Below, one piece after another: positions 31,022 through 44,846 of a DNA stretch of 51,188 nucleotides. Both the position numbers and the translations under genes were made by a program. The first letter of the stretch is position 1. Each line of letters begins with the position of its first letter. A model generated the notes under the pieces. That model was not told the origin of the DNA, did not search any database, and saw nothing but the letters and a program-made list of their open reading frames with translations. The DNA is from a virus, in IMG/VR virus record IMGVR_UViG_3300005515_000638, positions 1 to 51,188 of that record, one strand, 5' to 3'.

Positions 31022-31344
31022 GCCGTCACCACAAACACGCCGTACACGGCCTGGGCATCAAGTTTCGTCATCGGCGCCTCGTCGCCACGCAGTGGGCGCA
31101 GGTGCCGCGGATCACAACCAGCCAGATTGCTCACCACCTTGCCGCCCTCGGCGTTACGCAACAGGTCTTCTGCGGTGACGATCCAGAGGCCCGGAGCATC
31201 CGCGTCGAAGTATCCGTCCTGGCGAAACACGGATTCGAAAGGCGGCACGAACTCCACCAGCTGCACCGAGCGGCCGATGTTCTCGGTGACGCTGAACGCT
31301 CCGGTGATCAGGGCGAGGTCGCCCGCCTTGAGGTTTTGAGTCAT
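31018..31344 (-). CDS. Hypothetical phage protein, 108 aa
   Basis: The beta-rich protein (MTQNLKAGDLALITGAFSV...) contains the pattern LKAGDLALI then a GxS/V strand and a VTAEDLLR helix, resembling small SH3-like barrels. It has ATGA overlaps with both the recombinase gene upstream and the zinc-ribbon gene downstream. The function is unknown. Confidence 0.72.
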   Translation of the reverse strand: MTQNLKAGDLALITGAFSVTENIGRSVQLVEFVPPFESVFRQDGYFDADAPGLWIVTAEDLLRNAEGGKVVSNLAGCDPRHLRPLRGDEAPMTKLDAQAVYGVFVVTA

Positions 31345-32639
31345 TTCGAATCCTCGCTAATTACAAATTCGGCAAGGCCGCTGGAGGCCTTGTGTTCCGC
31401 TGGCTGGGCCGAATTCTGTGAAATTTCGGATAAGGCCTTGGTAAGGCCGTGAATGGCACCGAAGCCGATGCCGTCTAACCAGGCGTGCCACTTCTCCAGG
31501 GCTGCCCGGCGCTGCTGCATGGCCTGGGTGTGGATGTAGGTGCTGGCGATCTTGCCAAGCGTGTGGTTCAGCAACATCTCGCCGATGTGGCCGTCGATGC
31601 CGAGGTCGGTCCAGGTGGTACGGGACACCTTGCGCAGGTCGTGGCTGGTCCACTCGCCCTGCCCCAGTCGGGTGAACACCATGCTCGCCTGAGTCTCGCT
31701 CAGCGGCAGCCCACGGCGGTTCGGGAACAGGTACACGCCCTCGTAGCCACGGGCCTGCTGGATCGTCCGGTACCGGGTCAGCAGCGCCGCCACCTGGGTG
31801 GTCAGCGGCAGGCGATGCTCGGTGCGGGTCTTGGTGTTCGCCGCCGGAATGAACCACTCGGCGGCGGCCAGGGAAATCTCGCTCCAGCGCGCCATGCGGG
31901 TCTCGCCGATCCTGGTACCGTGGGCCAGCATCATCAGGGCCAGCATGGCGTCCCCCGGCTCCAGCTCGAAGGCCTGGGCCAGTTGCTGCATCAGCTCGGG
32001 CAGCTGTACGCCGCGCAGCCGGGCCGCCTTGGGCAGGATCCGGGCCTTGGTGAAGTCGTTGAAACGCATCCCGGCCATGGGGTTGCGGTCGATCAGCCCA
32101 AGCTGGAGGGCCTGGCGGAAGGCAGTAAGCAGCAGCGCGAACATCTGCCGCAGGTAGGACAGTGACACTTCGGCCTGGCACGGCCACATCAGGTGCTTGT
32201 CCAGCGCCTCGGCACTCACGCTGGGCACGGCCAGGTCATCCAGGCGAGGCTTCAGGTGCTGGGCAATGGCGGATCGGGCGCCGGCCTTGCGCTTCGCCGA
32301 CAGCGAGCGGTCACGCGCCATGCGGTCGCCGTACCAGTCGAGCAATTGGCCCACGGTGGCCATGCCCGACACCACCGGCGCGGTGGCCGGGTCACGCAGC
32401 AGGCGCTGACGCAGCGCAGGCAGCTCGGCAATCACCGCCGCCACGCTCAGGTCGGGCCAGCGCGCCACCGGCACCCATTTCTTGCCGCGCACCAGGTGCC
32501 AGGTACCGCGCTCGCGGTTGCTCCAGAAGCGCAGGTACAGGCCGGGGTGCCGCGGGTCGCGCAGGTCGCGCACCGACTTGTCGGCGGCCTGCCGGCGCAC
32601 CTCGGCTTCGCTCAGTTTCACTTCCCGGGTCGCGCTCAT
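31341..32639 (-). CDS. Second tyrosine recombinase, internal to the early operon
   Basis: The 432-residue protein is a full-length P4-type tyrosine recombinase. All catalytic positions are visible: Arg in HGTRIGETRM, Lys in NTKTRTEHRL, HDLRK, and the nucleophile Tyr in NHTLGKIASTYIH. It is joined to neighbours on both sides by ATGA overlaps inside the replication operon, and no attachment site is apparent. It is a different subfamily from the integrase at the prophage end. It may resolve genome multimers, drive a second integration route, or be a captured integrase. Base composition is more GC-rich than its neighbours. Confidence 0.9.
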   Translation of the reverse strand: MSATREVKLSEAEVRRQAADKSVRDLRDPRHPGLYLRFWSNRERGTWHLVRGKKWVPVARWPDLSVAAVIAELPALRQRLLRDPATAPVVSGMATVGQLLDWYGDRMARDRSLSAKRKAGARSAIAQHLKPRLDDLAVPSVSAEALDKHLMWPCQAEVSLSYLRQMFALLLTAFRQALQLGLIDRNPMAGMRFNDFTKARILPKAARLRGVQLPELMQQLAQAFELEPGDAMLALMMLAHGTRIGETRMARWSEISLAAAEWFIPAANTKTRTEHRLPLTTQVAALLTRYRTIQQARGYEGVYLFPNRRGLPLSETQASMVFTRLGQGEWTSHDLRKVSRTTWTDLGIDGHIGEMLLNHTLGKIASTYIHTQAMQQRRAALEKWHAWLDGIGFGAIHGLTKALSEISQNSAQPAEHKASSGLAEFVISEDSK

Positions 32640-35239: not shown

Positions 35240-35287
35240 CAAGCATGCTTGTATATGCAAAACAAGCATGCTTGACAAGCAACCTTG
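35240..35287. promoter_or_regulatory. OR operator cluster (three sites)
   Basis: Two perfect copies of the palindrome CAAGCATGCTTG (35240-35251 and 35263-35274, centres 23 bp apart) are followed by a degenerate site CAAGCAACCTTG (35276-35287). They cover the -10 and spacer of PR and approach the -10 of the cI promoter, as repressor sites in lambda OR do. The same motif recurs at 38603-38657. Confidence 0.9.
35250..35278 (-). promoter_or_regulatory. PR promoter for cro and replication operon
   Basis: The minus strand has TTGTCA (35273-35278), a 17-bp spacer and TATACA (35250-35255), close to consensus. The central operator fills the spacer and another overlaps the -10, so binding of CI or Cro would block it. 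Confidence 0.88.
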
Positions 35288-35300
35288 TAGATTGCGCACA
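35288..35300 (+). promoter_or_regulatory. PRM-like promoter giving a leaderless cI mRNA
   Basis: TAGATT (35288-35293) lies 7 bases before the A of the cI start codon. No recognisable -35 is present 17 bp upstream, as expected for a promoter that needs activation by bound repressor. No ribosome binding site precedes the ATG. Transcription starting at the ATG itself, as for lambda cI from PRM, is therefore likely. Confidence 0.55.
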
Positions 35301-36151
35301 TGAAGACCACAGACCGAATCACTAAGCTCGTGCTGGCTCGGCGCCCTGAATTGGGCGTGCGCAACGTCAAGCGAGATATCGCCAACACCTGCGGCATCAG
35401 CTATGAGGCAGTACGCCAGTGGTTTGCTGGCGACACTGAAAACATCAAAAACGAGAACCTTGTGGCTCTCGCCGAGGGCTACGACACATCTGTCGACTGG
35501 CTTCTGTCAGGAAAAGGCGAACCTCCCCGCAAAAGCGAAGCCAAGGCAGTTGCGGCAAAGGACTCAGGGAGCAGCAGCTCAGCAGCAGATGCTGTTAGAA
35601 AGATGCTTGAGAAGCACGGCAAGGGACTGAGCTCTGAAGCACGGCAAAGCATCATTCGCGCGGTCGAAGAAGACCCTGCTGGAGATAAAGGCAGTGGTTT
35701 CATCATTGCTACAGCGCAACCGGCCCCTGGCGACATCTCAATCCCTCAGTACGACATCCGGGCAGCCATGGGCCATGGCCAGGTACCGGCCGAGTACAAC
35801 GAAGTCATCAGGAATGTGGTCATCCGCGAAGAGGTGCTGCGCGAAAAAGGAGTTACCTACACCTCAGCCCAGGCGCTATCGGTGATCACAGGCTGGGGAC
35901 AGAGCATGGAGGGAACGATCAACGATAAAGACCCGGTGATCGTTGATCGTGGGGTGAATGACTATCAAGGCGAGGGGGTTTATGTTCTCTCTTGGCACGG
36001 GGACCTCCTGATCAAGCGTCTGCAGCGGAAAGACGAGGATCATGTTTGGTTAATTTCAGATAACAAGATCTATGACAAGCAGCCCGCCCGTTTCGATGAC
36101 GTAGCAATACACGCAAAGGTGCTGCTCGTGTGGAACGCCAGAAAGGTTTAA
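35300..36151 (+). CDS. CI-like S24 prophage repressor
   Basis: The 283-residue repressor has an N-terminal helix-turn-helix (residues about 22-45, DIANTCGISYEAVRQWF). A Ser/Ala-rich hinge follows, then a LexA/S24 peptidase domain. Ser202 in GWGQSMEG and Lys239 in LLIKR form the catalytic dyad for RecA-stimulated self-cleavage. An Ala-Gly at 127-128 is a candidate cleavage site. It faces away from cro and shares its recognition-helix sequence. DNA damage should therefore induce the prophage. The next gene follows after 27 bp and is probably co-transcribed in the lysogen. Confidence 0.93.
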   Translation: MKTTDRITKLVLARRPELGVRNVKRDIANTCGISYEAVRQWFAGDTENIKNENLVALAEGYDTSVDWLLSGKGEPPRKSEAKAVAAKDSGSSSSAADAVRKMLEKHGKGLSSEARQSIIRAVEEDPAGDKGSGFIIATAQPAPGDISIPQYDIRAAMGHGQVPAEYNEVIRNVVIREEVLREKGVTYTSAQALSVITGWGQSMEGTINDKDPVIVDRGVNDYQGEGVYVLSWHGDLLIKRLQRKDEDHVWLISDNKIYDKQPARFDDVAIHAKVLLVWNARKV

Positions 36152-36178
36152 CTCGACAAATTTTATAGGGAGATTTTC

Positions 36179-38194
36179 TTGTCAGCCAATTTTATTCCCC
36201 AAGACTTTTCTGGCTCCAATACGATTACACACAGTGGCATTTTAAAGCACTTCAAAACAGTAGAGCCAGTACAAGCGCTAGCCGAGCTTATATGGAATGG
36301 GTTCGATGCAGGCGCCTCATTTGTCAATGTTTTGATTCAGAGCAACGACATAGATGGAACCGAGCTGTTAACCATTCTGGATAACGGTAAGGGCATTAAT
36401 TTTAAATCACCACAAGACAACTTTCGACGTTTCAACGACTCATTAAAAAAAGATTCTTATGACACGCACGGCTCTCAAGGCCGCGGCCGACTTGCATTCC
36501 ATAAAATCTGCAATACAGCCACATGGTTTACAAGGTACGAGGGCGGCAACGCCATCATTAGAGTTGCAAGCAGCAATCTTAGCGACATCGAAGGCCGAAC
36601 CATTCCAACTGCTGAGCAACATCCCTTTCTTGATGGAAGCGACTCCGGGACATGCGTTGTCCTTTCTGATTTCAAGAACAATTTCCCTAGTCAAGACTTT
36701 ATAATCTCTGAATTCAGGCGAATCTTTGGCGCGCACCTTGCACTAATGCCGCATAAGTCTTTGCGCGTGAATGGTCACATTGTCACGCCGCAAGATCATG
36801 ATTTATATGAAGTCAAAGTAAATTCCAAGGGCGATCAATTTGAGGTTAAGCTCCTTCATTGGAAAGAGAAGCCTGGCTCTGAAAAGTCCTTCATCCACCT
36901 AATCAATACCAATAGCAAAATTCTTTATAAATTCCACAGTAGTCTCAATCGCAAGCGTGGATATTATTCATCGATCTACGTGAGATCCGCGCTTTTCGAC
37001 CGATACAGCGACGACAGCGATTCTCTTCACGAACCAATCGGAGCATTCCTTGTAAGCAGTCAGTTCAAGGAACTAGAAAGTGAAATTGGCGCCTTTGCGA
37101 AGCGCATGTATGCCGAGTTCCTCATCAAACAAGCTGAAAAGCACGTATCTCAATTTGAAGAGGACGGTGATTTCCCTGAATATCCAAACTTGGATGCTCA
37201 AGAGTCAAAATGGCGCTTATCACATGTCAAGAACATCGTTAAGGCTGTATTGGTTCGCGAACCAAGCTTGCTGGTGGGAAATAATAAAAAACAGCGCCGG
37301 CTGATCATAAGATTATTAGACAGACTATCCGTTTCAAACGAAAATAGCGGCATATTTGAAATTCTAGAAAGCATTCTAAATTTGGATGCCGCCGCCATGA
37401 CAAAACTTGCCGATCAACTCAAAAAAACCAAGCTCGACAATATTATAAACACCATTGAAATCTTGCAAAATCGAGAGCTGGCGATTTCCCAAATCAAGGA
37501 AATCATGAACACTCATTATGCAACAGTCCGCGAGACCCCTGACCTGCAGGCCGTTATTGAAAGTAACACATGGCTGTTCGGAGCCTCATACGAAATCCTA
37601 GGTGCTGAAGAGGCAAGTTTTACGGAAACCACTCGAAACCTTCGCTCAACCATTAAAGAGATTGAGGGAGTAGATGTAGGCGACCTCGCTGAGGGAGTCG
37701 AAATCGAAGGTGCGAAAAAACAGGTAGACCTGCTACTTGTCCGAAGACAGCCTCAGATCGACCCAAGCGGTAGAAAGTACTTCCGTTGCGTCATAGTAGA
37801 GATCAAGCGCCCCGGGGTATCATTAAATGACAAGCATCTACAACAGCTGGACACGTATGCTTCAATTCTAAGTAGATACCCTGCCTTTAACAGCGATTTA
37901 ACTCGATTCGAACTACTTCTCGTCGGCCGAAGCATTTCAAGTGAGGCATTTGCAATCCATAATCGCTTAGATACCTCTAAGGTTCATGGTGAGCCTGGTT
38001 TGGTAACCTCCACCCCGAAGATCAAGACCTATATCAAAACCTGGCCCAGAATCTTCGATGAATTTGAACTTACTAATGATTATCTATTAGAACATCTGAA
38101 AACTCAGCGAGCTGACCTTTCATCAGCCACCAAAGATGAGTTGTTGGCAGACCTCACAAGTCGTAATCCTGTAGCCGAGCCGACGGAAGCTTAG
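36179..38194 (+). CDS. GHKL ATPase fused to PD-(D/E)xK (Shedu-like) nuclease
   Basis: The 671-residue protein starts at TTG, with AGGGAG 7 bases upstream. Residues 25-200 form a GHKL/Hsp90-type ATPase: N-box ELIWNGFDA (Glu36, Asn40, Asp43), G1 box DNGKGI (68-73) and G2 box GSQGRG (98-103). The C-terminal part (about 455-620) has NTWLFGASYEIL, QVDLLLV (Asp517), VEIKRP (Glu541, Lys543) and QLDTY, the layout of DUF4263/Shedu-type nucleases. The gene is much more AT-rich than its surroundings and lies right behind cI, in the place of lambda rexAB. It should be expressed in the lysogen. A defence or superinfection-exclusion role is inferred. Confidence 0.88.
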   Translation: MSANFIPQDFSGSNTITHSGILKHFKTVEPVQALAELIWNGFDAGASFVNVLIQSNDIDGTELLTILDNGKGINFKSPQDNFRRFNDSLKKDSYDTHGSQGRGRLAFHKICNTATWFTRYEGGNAIIRVASSNLSDIEGRTIPTAEQHPFLDGSDSGTCVVLSDFKNNFPSQDFIISEFRRIFGAHLALMPHKSLRVNGHIVTPQDHDLYEVKVNSKGDQFEVKLLHWKEKPGSEKSFIHLINTNSKILYKFHSSLNRKRGYYSSIYVRSALFDRYSDDSDSLHEPIGAFLVSSQFKELESEIGAFAKRMYAEFLIKQAEKHVSQFEEDGDFPEYPNLDAQESKWRLSHVKNIVKAVLVREPSLLVGNNKKQRRLIIRLLDRLSVSNENSGIFEILESILNLDAAAMTKLADQLKKTKLDNIINTIEILQNRELAISQIKEIMNTHYATVRETPDLQAVIESNTWLFGASYEILGAEEASFTETTRNLRSTIKEIEGVDVGDLAEGVEIEGAKKQVDLLLVRRQPQIDPSGRKYFRCVIVEIKRPGVSLNDKHLQQLDTYASILSRYPAFNSDLTRFELLLVGRSISSEAFAIHNRLDTSKVHGEPGLVTSTPKIKTYIKTWPRIFDEFELTNDYLLEHLKTQRADLSSATKDELLADLTSRNPVAEPTEA

Positions 38195-38231
38195 CTCGGC
38201 TTTGGTGATGGGCCTAATAATGGCCCATCAC
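38173..38231. terminator. Two hairpins between convergent genes
   Basis: AGCCGAGC/GCTCGGCT (38173-38201) is an 8-bp stem overlapping the stop of the 671-residue gene and followed by TTTGG. A second perfect 10-bp stem, GTGATGGGCC/GGCCCATCAC (38205-38231), lies between the two convergent stops. Neither has a long T-run, but together they probably end transcription from both sides. Confidence 0.6.
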
Positions 38232-38233
38232 AG

Positions 38234-38554
38234 TTAAAAAGGCGCCTCTTCCTCTTCGTGGCGCACCAGGCCCAGTTCAACTTCCCTCTCGATCACCCGG
38301 TCATCATTCGTCGGAGCATCCCATTGCAGGATCACCGATCCGTCATCACAGGACGTCATGTCCAAGCCGTCAGTCTCTGACAGCAACTCCAGAATCGCGT
38401 CCCAATCCTGATCGCTGTCAGTGTCCATTTGATGGATCAGAACCTTCCTGCCGAACTGCGCCAGCGGTGAGTTGATCATCGCCGAAACCCTCAGCCCTAA
38501 GCGCTCCAGTCCGGTGAGCTCATCCCTGCGTGCGAAATTTTCCAGCACTGACAT
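38234..38554 (-). CDS. DUF1654-like SOS-controlled protein
   Basis: The 106-residue protein has the DUF1654 pattern known from Pseudomonas: ERLGLRVSAMINSP, then ETDGLDMTSCDDGSV, and ends in an acidic tail. AGGAGG lies 7 bases before the ATG at 38554; the longer frame to 38617 runs through the LexA box and is rejected. A perfect LexA box sits 18 bp upstream, and the OL operators follow. Expression should therefore respond to SOS and perhaps to CI. The function is unknown. Confidence 0.85.
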   Translation of the reverse strand: MSVLENFARRDELTGLERLGLRVSAMINSPLAQFGRKVLIHQMDTDSDQDWDAILELLSETDGLDMTSCDDGSVILQWDAPTNDDRVIEREVELGLVRHEEEEAPF

Positions 38555-38571
38555 CAGAAGCCTCCTACTAG

Positions 38572-38587
38572 CTGTATGCATATACAG
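38572..38587. promoter_or_regulatory. LexA (SOS) box upstream of DUF1654 gene
   Basis: CTGTATGCATATACAG is identical over all 16 bases to the box at 21-36. It lies between the DUF1654 ribosome binding site and the OL operators, so it can control the leftward promoter of that gene. Confidence 0.88.
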
Positions 38588-38602
38588 TATTTCAAAAATA
38601 CA

Positions 38603-38657
38603 CAAGCGTGCTTGCATTCAATGCGCAAGCATGCTTTTATTTGTACAAGTTCGCTTG
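38603..38657. promoter_or_regulatory. OL operator cluster (three sites)
   Basis: CAAGCGTGCTTG (38603-38614), CAAGCATGCTTT (38626-38637) and CAAGTTCGCTTG (38646-38657) match the OR palindrome. The first two are again 23 bp apart centre to centre. Two clusters 3.3 kb apart flank cI and the 671-residue gene, as OL and OR flank the lambda immunity genes, which would permit looping by CI. Confidence 0.88.
38612..38640 (+). promoter_or_regulatory. Candidate PL-like rightward promoter
   Basis: TTGCAT (38612-38617) and TTTTAT (38635-38640) have a 17-bp spacer and are overlapped by OL sites 1 and 2. It would drive the rightward accessory operon towards xis and int. The match is moderate. Confidence 0.42.
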
Positions 38658-39182
38658 CATTTGCATCGAGCCAGGTAGCTGCGGCAGCCATCGCTCTTTA
38701 CACAACCAGACGTGACCACCTCGACGCACCCAGGCCATTACCTGGGTCGGGACAAGCTAAGTCGTCGACCACGCAGCCTCTGGATAGCTGCCGGACTCCC
38801 CCAATGGGAAGACGCCAAACCATGCGAGCCACCTGATGCGTAGCCAGTAGCTGCAGCAGGCAGAGGTGGGGAAACCCGGCGCCGAGCATGGTGCGGACCA
38901 AAAACCACGGGAGGAACATGCCAATGAAGTAGTGAGCCCAGCCGGAGTACGGACCGGCAACCCACGACGGACTGCCCCACCCAACGGGCCGCAGAGCTGC
39001 AGTTGACTGTCGTGTAGCGAACACCTGACCCCATGACCGCACCGCCGAGGCCGACCGACGCGAGATGATAGGGAAGCTCTAGGTCAAACAAGCGCAGCGC
39101 AAAGCCGTCGGCGGCAGAGCGCGATTTCACTGGCTGGCCTTGGCGACAGGGCCAGACGGGAAATCAACCCGAGGGCATCACC
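38658..39182 (+). other. 525-bp leader without a convincing gene
   Basis: No frame here has a good start signal and phage-like sequence. Minus-strand frames up to 130 codons exist but look like GC-driven artefacts. A 7-bp hairpin ACCCAGG/CCTGGGT (38728-38747) lies about 80 bases into the predicted PL transcript. An antiterminator gene or RNA element might be hidden here, but none can be named. Confidence 0.5.
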
Positions 39183-43922: not shown

Positions 43923-44846
43923 GTGCCCACAGCAATCGACCTGTTCGCCGGCCTCGGCGGATGGAGCACCGGCGCGCGCGCCGCAGGCGTCCAGGTTCTC
44001 TGGGCGGCAAACCACTGGCCGGTAGCCGTTGAATGGCACAGCGCCAACCACCCCGACACGCAGCACGTTTGCCAGGACTTGCACCAGGCTCGCTGGGAAC
44101 AGGTGCCGGCACACGACATCCTACTGGCCTCGCCCTGCTGCCAGGGCCACGCGAAGGCCCGCGGCAAGAAATCGGGCAACCCTGAGCACGACGCATCGCG
44201 CTCGACGGCCTGGTCGCCGGTATCGGCCCTGGAGTTCCACCGACCACAAGCGGCGGTGATCGAGAACGTTCCGGAGTTCACCGACTGGGTTCTCTACCCA
44301 GCCTGGCTGCAAGCGGTACAGGCGCTTGGATATCAGGCAGCGCCGCACATCGTGGACTGCGCCGACCTCGGCGTGCCACAGCACCGCGTGCGGCTATTCA
44401 TAGTGCTGACGCGCAGCAAGGCCCCACTGATGCTTCAACTGCAGCGCGAGCGGCATGTGCCGGCGAGCAGCATCCTCGACTTCGACGCCGGGCGGTGGTC
44501 GCCAATCGAGAAGCCAGGACGGGCCCAGGCCACGCTCGAACGAGTGCGCAACGGGCGCCAGCGCTTCGGCGACCGCTTCATCATGCCCTACTACGGCAAA
44601 GGCTCCGGCACCACCGGCCGGGACATCAACCGCCCGATCGGAACCATCACTACCCTGGACCGCTGGGCCCTCGTCGACGGTGACCGCATGCGGATGCTCA
44701 GCGCCAGCGAGGCCCTGGCCGCCATGTCGTTCCCGGCTGACACCCTGCGACCGGACAACCACCGGCTGACTATGCACATGGCAGGCAACGCGGTACCACC
44801 GCTGGCTGGACAGAGGGTCATCGAGGCGCTGTTAAAAGCGGCATGA
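43923..44846 (+). CDS. Orphan C5 cytosine DNA methyltransferase
   Basis: The 307-residue enzyme starts at GTG. It has motif I (IDLFAGLGGWSTGARAAG), the catalytic PC motif (Pro71-Cys72 in SPCCQGH), motif VI (IENVPEF), motif VIII (PQHRVRLFIV) and motifs IX-X (MSFPAD, MAGNAVPP). The target recognition region is short. There is no adjacent restriction enzyme, so it likely protects phage DNA from host restriction. The recognition sequence cannot be read from the protein. Confidence 0.93.
   Translation: MPTAIDLFAGLGGWSTGARAAGVQVLWAANHWPVAVEWHSANHPDTQHVCQDLHQARWEQVPAHDILLASPCCQGHAKARGKKSGNPEHDASRSTAWSPVSALEFHRPQAAVIENVPEFTDWVLYPAWLQAVQALGYQAAPHIVDCADLGVPQHRVRLFIVLTRSKAPLMLQLQRERHVPASSILDFDAGRWSPIEKPGRAQATLERVRNGRQRFGDRFIMPYYGKGSGTTGRDINRPIGTITTLDRWALVDGDRMRMLSASEALAAMSFPADTLRPDNHRLTMHMAGNAVPPLAGQRVIEALLKAA

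Follow-up and report, generated by a model that had tools for sequence, protein, structure and literature searches.

The stretch of viral DNA analysed here (the whole 51,188 nucleotides, hereafter the window) comes from a temperate phage of Pseudomonas and carries, directly behind the cI repressor gene, a gene encoding a GHKL ATPase fused to a C-terminal PD-(D/E)xK nuclease. We consider it probable, at roughly 0.7, that the product is a prophage-borne, lysogen-expressed, ATP-gated single-gene anti-phage nuclease of the paraMORC3/VcSduA kind. The preliminary description of this DNA had hinted that no named system carried such a fusion, which does not hold. The fusion is not new, because the same layout was already described for paraMORC3 (in 2008, PMC2292703) and for VcSduA (PMC12137116). 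The protein class is thus known; what is useful is its placement, coupled to the repressor, and the size of the slot for cargo in which it lies.

The gene and its two domains

The open reading frame starts with TTG 27 bp 3' of cI and is preceded by a ribosome-binding site (see the table); its coordinates, start codon, ribosome site and distance to cI were all as first described. It was also rightly called AT-rich, with a G+C content of 44.5% vs 59.5% for the window. The whole protein matched phrog_6203, a phage family without a name (1.2e-87). Comparison with the nearest relatives gave dN/dS values of 0.036-0.043 and the gene is therefore under strong purifying selection. A chance open reading frame was ruled out by the 81 full-length relatives together with a dN/dS of about 0.04.

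Coordinates of the features of the immunity region and of the fusion gene in the window
Feature	Position	Strand	Basis or remark
OR-like operator cluster, three sites	35240..35287	.	35240-35251 and 35263-35274 perfect CAAGCATGCTTG; 35276-35287 CAAGCAACCTTG
CI-type repressor, HTH + S24 peptidase	35300..36151	+	Pfam Peptidase_S24 2.6e-20; phrog_4 3e-42; same operon direction as fusion gene
Accessory slot, cI to convergent phrog_2707 gene	36152..38233	.	empty or with other cargo in related phages
Ribosome-binding site AGGGAGA	36167-36173	+	precedes TTG start; read from sequence
GHKL ATPase - PD-(D/E)xK nuclease fusion, 671 aa	36179..38194	+	Pfam, phrog, alignment, dN/dS
GHKL ATPase domain, residues about 30-165 (E36/N40, D68-x-G-x-G, G98xxGxG, T158)	36266..36673	+	Pfam; Foldseek
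Probable S5-like transducer after ATPase domain, residues about 194-270	36758..36988	+	AlphaFold2 secondary structure; MORC/Hsp90/GyrB matches
PD-(D/E)xK nuclease domain, residues about 452-622 (E452, W465/F467, E477, D517, E541-x-K543, Q556)	37532..38044	+	alignment; Foldseek; hhalign
10-bp perfect hairpin GTGATGGGCC-TAATAAT-GGCCCATCAC at slot end	38205..38231	.	z = -4.6; probable bidirectional terminator
Convergent conserved phage gene phrog_2707, bounds slot	38234..38617	-	phrog_2707 9.6e-31
OL-like operator cluster, CAAGCATGCTTG-like	38603..38657	.	38603-38614, 38626-38637, 38646-38657

The N-terminal part matched Pfam HATPase_c_3 over residues 31-147 (E = 1.3e-15). In the alignment of the 81 relatives E36, N40, D43, D68, G70, G72, G98, G101, G103 and R104 were invariant and T158 was conserved in at least 90%. 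Both the set of GHKL motifs, which had been called complete, and the GHKL-nuclease fusion itself were borne out. The PDB structures nearest to an AlphaFold2 model of the protein (pLDDT 73) were, by Foldseek, the human and mouse MORC ATPases (MORC2/3/4, E down to 1.5e-11), followed by Hsp90/TRAP1, topoisomerase ATPases and MutL. MORC ATPases clamp DNA. These ATPases (MORC2/3/4, MutL and Hsp90) have the GHKL fold in common with the fusion protein, the MORCs being the best structural matches, but they have no fused PD-(D/E)xK nuclease. The same model has strands at residues 194-269, where the probable S5-like transducer is placed, and the MORC/GyrB/Hsp90 matches span about 350-400 columns rather than S5 alone.

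In the C-terminal part K543 and Q556 were invariant among the 81 relatives, E452, D517, E541, R544 and P545 were each kept in at least 90%, and W465 and F467 of the NTWLFG stretch were conserved, in line with the PD-(D/E)xK layout first read from the letters. The last 267 residues were modelled separately from the 81 relatives (pTM 0.71), and near the top this model matched only PD-(D/E)xK enzymes, all weakly (MspJI, the best at 1.7e-3, MUS81, SgrAI and Cap4); Shedu was absent from the top 50 Foldseek matches. Searched against PDB sequences, the C-terminal profile had no match, and by HMMER the fusion protein did not match Pfam SduA_C (DUF4263), whose score in L113, a relative from Pseudomonas, was 15.7 bits vs a cut-off of 27.

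Profile-profile comparison with hhalign aligned the nuclease part to the Shedu domain with a probability of 93% and a score of 49.0. With gap columns trimmed, 40 column shuffles scored at most 17.6 and the reversed profile 15.5; the first shuffle control, which was untrimmed, gave one 14-column match at a probability of 99 that was attributed to gap columns. The HSDR_N_2 profile scored lower than the Shedu domain (36.6). The aligned core consists of the W-x-F-G ... D ... E-x-K stretch of about 70 columns, already picked out in the preliminary description, and it is this nuclease core that canonical Shedu (SduA, PF14082; PDB 8ti8) has in common with the fusion protein; canonical SduA lacks the GHKL domain, and the fusion protein lacks a significant HMMER match to SduA_C. 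The alignment is suggestive of membership in the Shedu domain, which we do not claim outright because the Foldseek matches of the C-terminal model to PD-(D/E)xK enzymes were weak and none of the top 50 was a Shedu protein. The checks proposed in the preliminary description, a profile search and structure prediction, thus upheld the ATPase half by Pfam and by the MORC matches, whereas the Shedu/DUF4263 likeness of the nuclease half stood in hhalign but not in the HMMER search with SduA_C or among the top 50 structural matches.

The immunity region and its cargo slot

Three putative operators upstream of cI and three beyond the slot reproduce the OR/OL layout of lambda, with cI and the fusion gene between them, as had been described. 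The assignment rests on clustering and spacing because the enrichment of the CAAGCATGCTTG motif was only modest across the window (8 found vs 3.6 expected at up to two mismatches); the third OL-like site has at least three mismatches. Co-transcription of the fusion gene with cI, already suspected from the sequence, appears likely since the 27-bp gap between them holds AGGGAGA and no terminator-like site. Where the window has the perfect hairpin at the slot end, sister phages have a GC-rich hairpin with a T-run. The real start of the phrog_2707 gene is probably nearer 38554, given that homologues align from about residue 22.

Two further elements were seen in the window. A conserved RNA hairpin (GATTTCACTGGCTGGCC...GGCCAGACGGGAAATC, 39124-39166) in the putative PL leader has 18 pairs, 4 of them with compensatory changes in 31 phages, often lies directly 5' of the ribosome site of differing first genes, and had no match in Rfam; it may act in antitermination (put/nut-like) or in translation control. 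In the early region an open reading frame (43923-44846) resembles, by eye, a C5-cytosine DNA methyltransferase and could provide self-protection against a nuclease.

Phages with related cI genes were collected and the interval from cI to the convergent phrog_2707 gene was measured in the 77 loci that had both flanks. The slot was empty in 20 loci (up to 130 bp, most often 47-65 bp with a terminator), intermediate in 3 and longer than 700 bp in 54. The filled slots contained 96 open reading frames of at least 100 amino acids on the cI strand, falling into 58 protein clusters, and 94% of the cargo residues were co-directional with cI. The first cargo reading frame started within 135 bp in 41/54 filled slots, and the G+C content of the cargo was below that of cI in 45/54.

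Known defence systems found in the slot by PADLOC were IetA and IetS (L166; 4e-100 and 3e-71), BstA (L230; 1e-117) and HEC-04 (L184; 8e-220), and PADLOC also recognised PDC-S33 (RelA/SpoT; L208), PDC-S42 (L177) and a beta protein (L163); a HipA-like kinase with DUF3037 (L161) was identified by Pfam. Other slots (among L160-L238) hold two-gene modules of a soluble and a membrane protein that resemble RexAB in layout. The GHKL-nuclease itself occupies the slot in L002/L160, L199, L200 and L202 and lies behind more diverged repressors in L003, L007-L013, L020 and L032. The slot thus holds dispensable, exchangeable cargo. Several of the clusters had matches to known or candidate defence families, the identified clusters being a minority. 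Some cargo genes, for lipoprotein-like and unknown proteins, show no recognisable link to defence, and location in the slot alone is therefore not proof of function.

The cI-adjacent slot was noted before as a hotspot in lambdoid phages (PMC8585504, citing Degnan 2007), and in a P. putida prophage RexABpp is encoded close to the repressor (PMC12894663). Our survey generalises the lambdoid hotspot to Pseudomonas phages and agrees with the position of RexABpp. Like lambda RexAB, BstA of BTP1 and RexABpp, which also lie 3' of a prophage repressor and are presumed to be expressed from its promoter, the fusion gene is directly 3' of cI, co-directional with it and between OR and OL; those proteins are unrelated to the GHKL-nuclease, and the mechanism of Rex and BstA is abortive. 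By comparison with the known systems found in the slot of sister phages, the gene would be a single-gene defence or exclusion system, as first proposed. Reading the interval from cI to the phrog_2707 gene gives a rule for finding defence genes in Pseudomonas phages, and the VcSduA/paraMORC3 kind of GHKL-nuclease is thereby placed in temperate phages as repressor-coupled cargo.

Possible function and alternatives

Two published families have the architecture of the fusion protein. According to the available portion of the description by Iyer, Abhiman & Aravind 2008 (PMC2292703), paraMORC3 combines GHKL, S5 and a C-terminal RE-fold domain with E-D-ExK, is partly encoded by stand-alone genes and shows a patchy, mobile spread in proteobacteria and bacteroidetes; that portion does not mention a phage-borne lineage in the cI slot. 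In paraMORC3 and the fusion protein alike the N-terminus is a GHKL domain with the full set of ATP-binding motifs, and E-D-ExK corresponds here to E452 or E477, D517 and E541-x-K543, with weak fold support. VcSduA (A1552VC_00276), a Shedu type I-D protein with GHKL and DUF4263 from the VSP-II genomic island of V. cholerae, protects against phages, and the substitutions E27A (ATPase Glu) and K557A (nuclease Lys) abolish protection (Nat Microbiol 2025, PMC12137116). It is likewise a single gene with an N-terminal GHKL domain, a middle clamp region and a C-terminal PD-(D/E)xK nuclease, a likeness drawn from the published description. The motif-I Glu lies at a similar position (residue 27 in VcSduA vs 36 here), as does the catalytic Lys (557 vs 543), giving a spacing of 530 vs 507, and whereas VcSduA lies in a genomic island and is reported to have DUF4263, the fusion protein lies in a phage cI slot and misses the Pfam model. 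No protein with the E27/K557 spacing of VcSduA was identified among the matches in 228 Vibrio genomes, and no PADLOC model matched the fusion protein.

The protein would be made in the lysogen from the cI transcript. By analogy with MORC and MutL biochemistry and VcSduA genetics, it would probably dimerise through its ATP-binding GHKL domain and would close around DNA in a MORC-like manner. Contact with DNA from a phage that is entering or replicating would then license the C-terminal domain to cut that DNA, and nucleotide-driven dimerisation may gate the nuclease. On induction the cI promoter would be shut and the prophage would lower the level of the protein; how a phage spares its own replicating genome from its DNA nuclease becomes testable. 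A more specific version is conceivable, and we hold it tentatively, at well under even odds. In it the phage lineage would form a superinfection-exclusion branch of its own: an ATP-driven MORC-like DNA clamp would sense a feature of replicating phage DNA and set off the nuclease fused to it, and CI-set levels would let the resident phage escape on induction. The protein would then be one among dozens of exclusion modules, exchangeable and for the most part uncharacterised, that use a general cI slot in Pseudomonas.

The main rival to an ATP-gated clamp-nuclease directed against foreign phage DNA is an abortive-infection effector, a triggered nuclease that would damage host DNA or RNA and kill or stall the infected cell, in line with the cell-level action of RexAB and BstA. 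In its favour, BstA occupies the same slot, lambda rexAB the same position and P. putida RexABpp a nearby one, and each of these systems aborts infection (PMC8585504, PMC12894663). VcSduA, however, is built in the same way and gave protection at every MOI tested, with survival of the host cells (PMC12137116), which favours direct restriction, and we judge abortive action unlikely. A function in maintenance of the phage's own DNA or in its switch (repair, recombination or an adjustment of lysogeny of the kind reported for RexA) instead of defence would fit the MutL/MORC kinship of the protein and the effect of RexA on the lysogeny switch (PMC11077077, abstract), but the gene is dispensable, sister loci being empty (20/77) or often carrying unrelated cargo, and relatives lie in chromosomal islands unlinked to repressors, which makes such a role improbable. 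The poorest candidate is a lone restriction enzyme of the BbrUII/HgiDII type, which would cut a specific sequence and need a methyltransferase: there is N-terminal similarity to NCBIfam BbrUII/HgiDII (8.4e-9), PADLOC type II REase models match relatives and the methyltransferase-like reading frame lies 6 kb away, but membership in that family (NF050001) was rejected at 34.5 bits vs a cut-off of 550 over residues 34-210 instead of the full length, and no methyltransferase was identified among the nearest genes at the phage loci, where neighbours were partly annotated.

Relatives and spread

In a quick tree search the Pseudomonas phage copies formed one clade (SH-aLRT 99), and the copies from chromosomal islands of many proteobacteria were separate from it, at 38-45% identity. 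This grouping points to a single entry into the slot, after which the gene would have spread among phages with different repressors. L004 and L014, two viral loci within the phage clade, do not have the GHKL-nuclease directly behind cI, and the tree tally of 15 slot rows with 2 changes counts L004 as a slot member though its upstream gene is not cI. One phage copy (L013:5906-7908) is split into two reading frames by a frameshift, reflecting decay or an assembly error.

The survey of where homologues lie, also suggested at the outset, placed them in phage cI slots and, for some chromosomal relatives, beside retron-type reverse transcriptase genes of defence families. Reverse transcriptases of these known families recur among the immediate neighbours of chromosomal copies (PADLOC, counted without a background rate). 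Reverse-transcriptase-like genes with YADD/YVDD lie beside the GHKL-nuclease gene in L036 and L061 (also L047 and L071), and the PADLOC matches among chromosomal neighbours comprised retron and RT-fusion defence families.

In four records named Providencia, Alteromonas, Marinomonas and Psychromonas (L065, L066, L067 and L072) the same 672-aa GHKL-nuclease adjoins a 413-aa integrase-like gene, the pair being a recently moved mobile element; the integrase-like gene is matched by the reading frame at 31341-32639 of the window. Three other proteins from Pseudomonas (L153, L156 and L159; about 580-600 aa) start with a ELVDNAWDADAE-type GHKL motif and match SduA_C weakly at the C-terminal end; they are possibly further GHKL-nuclease types.
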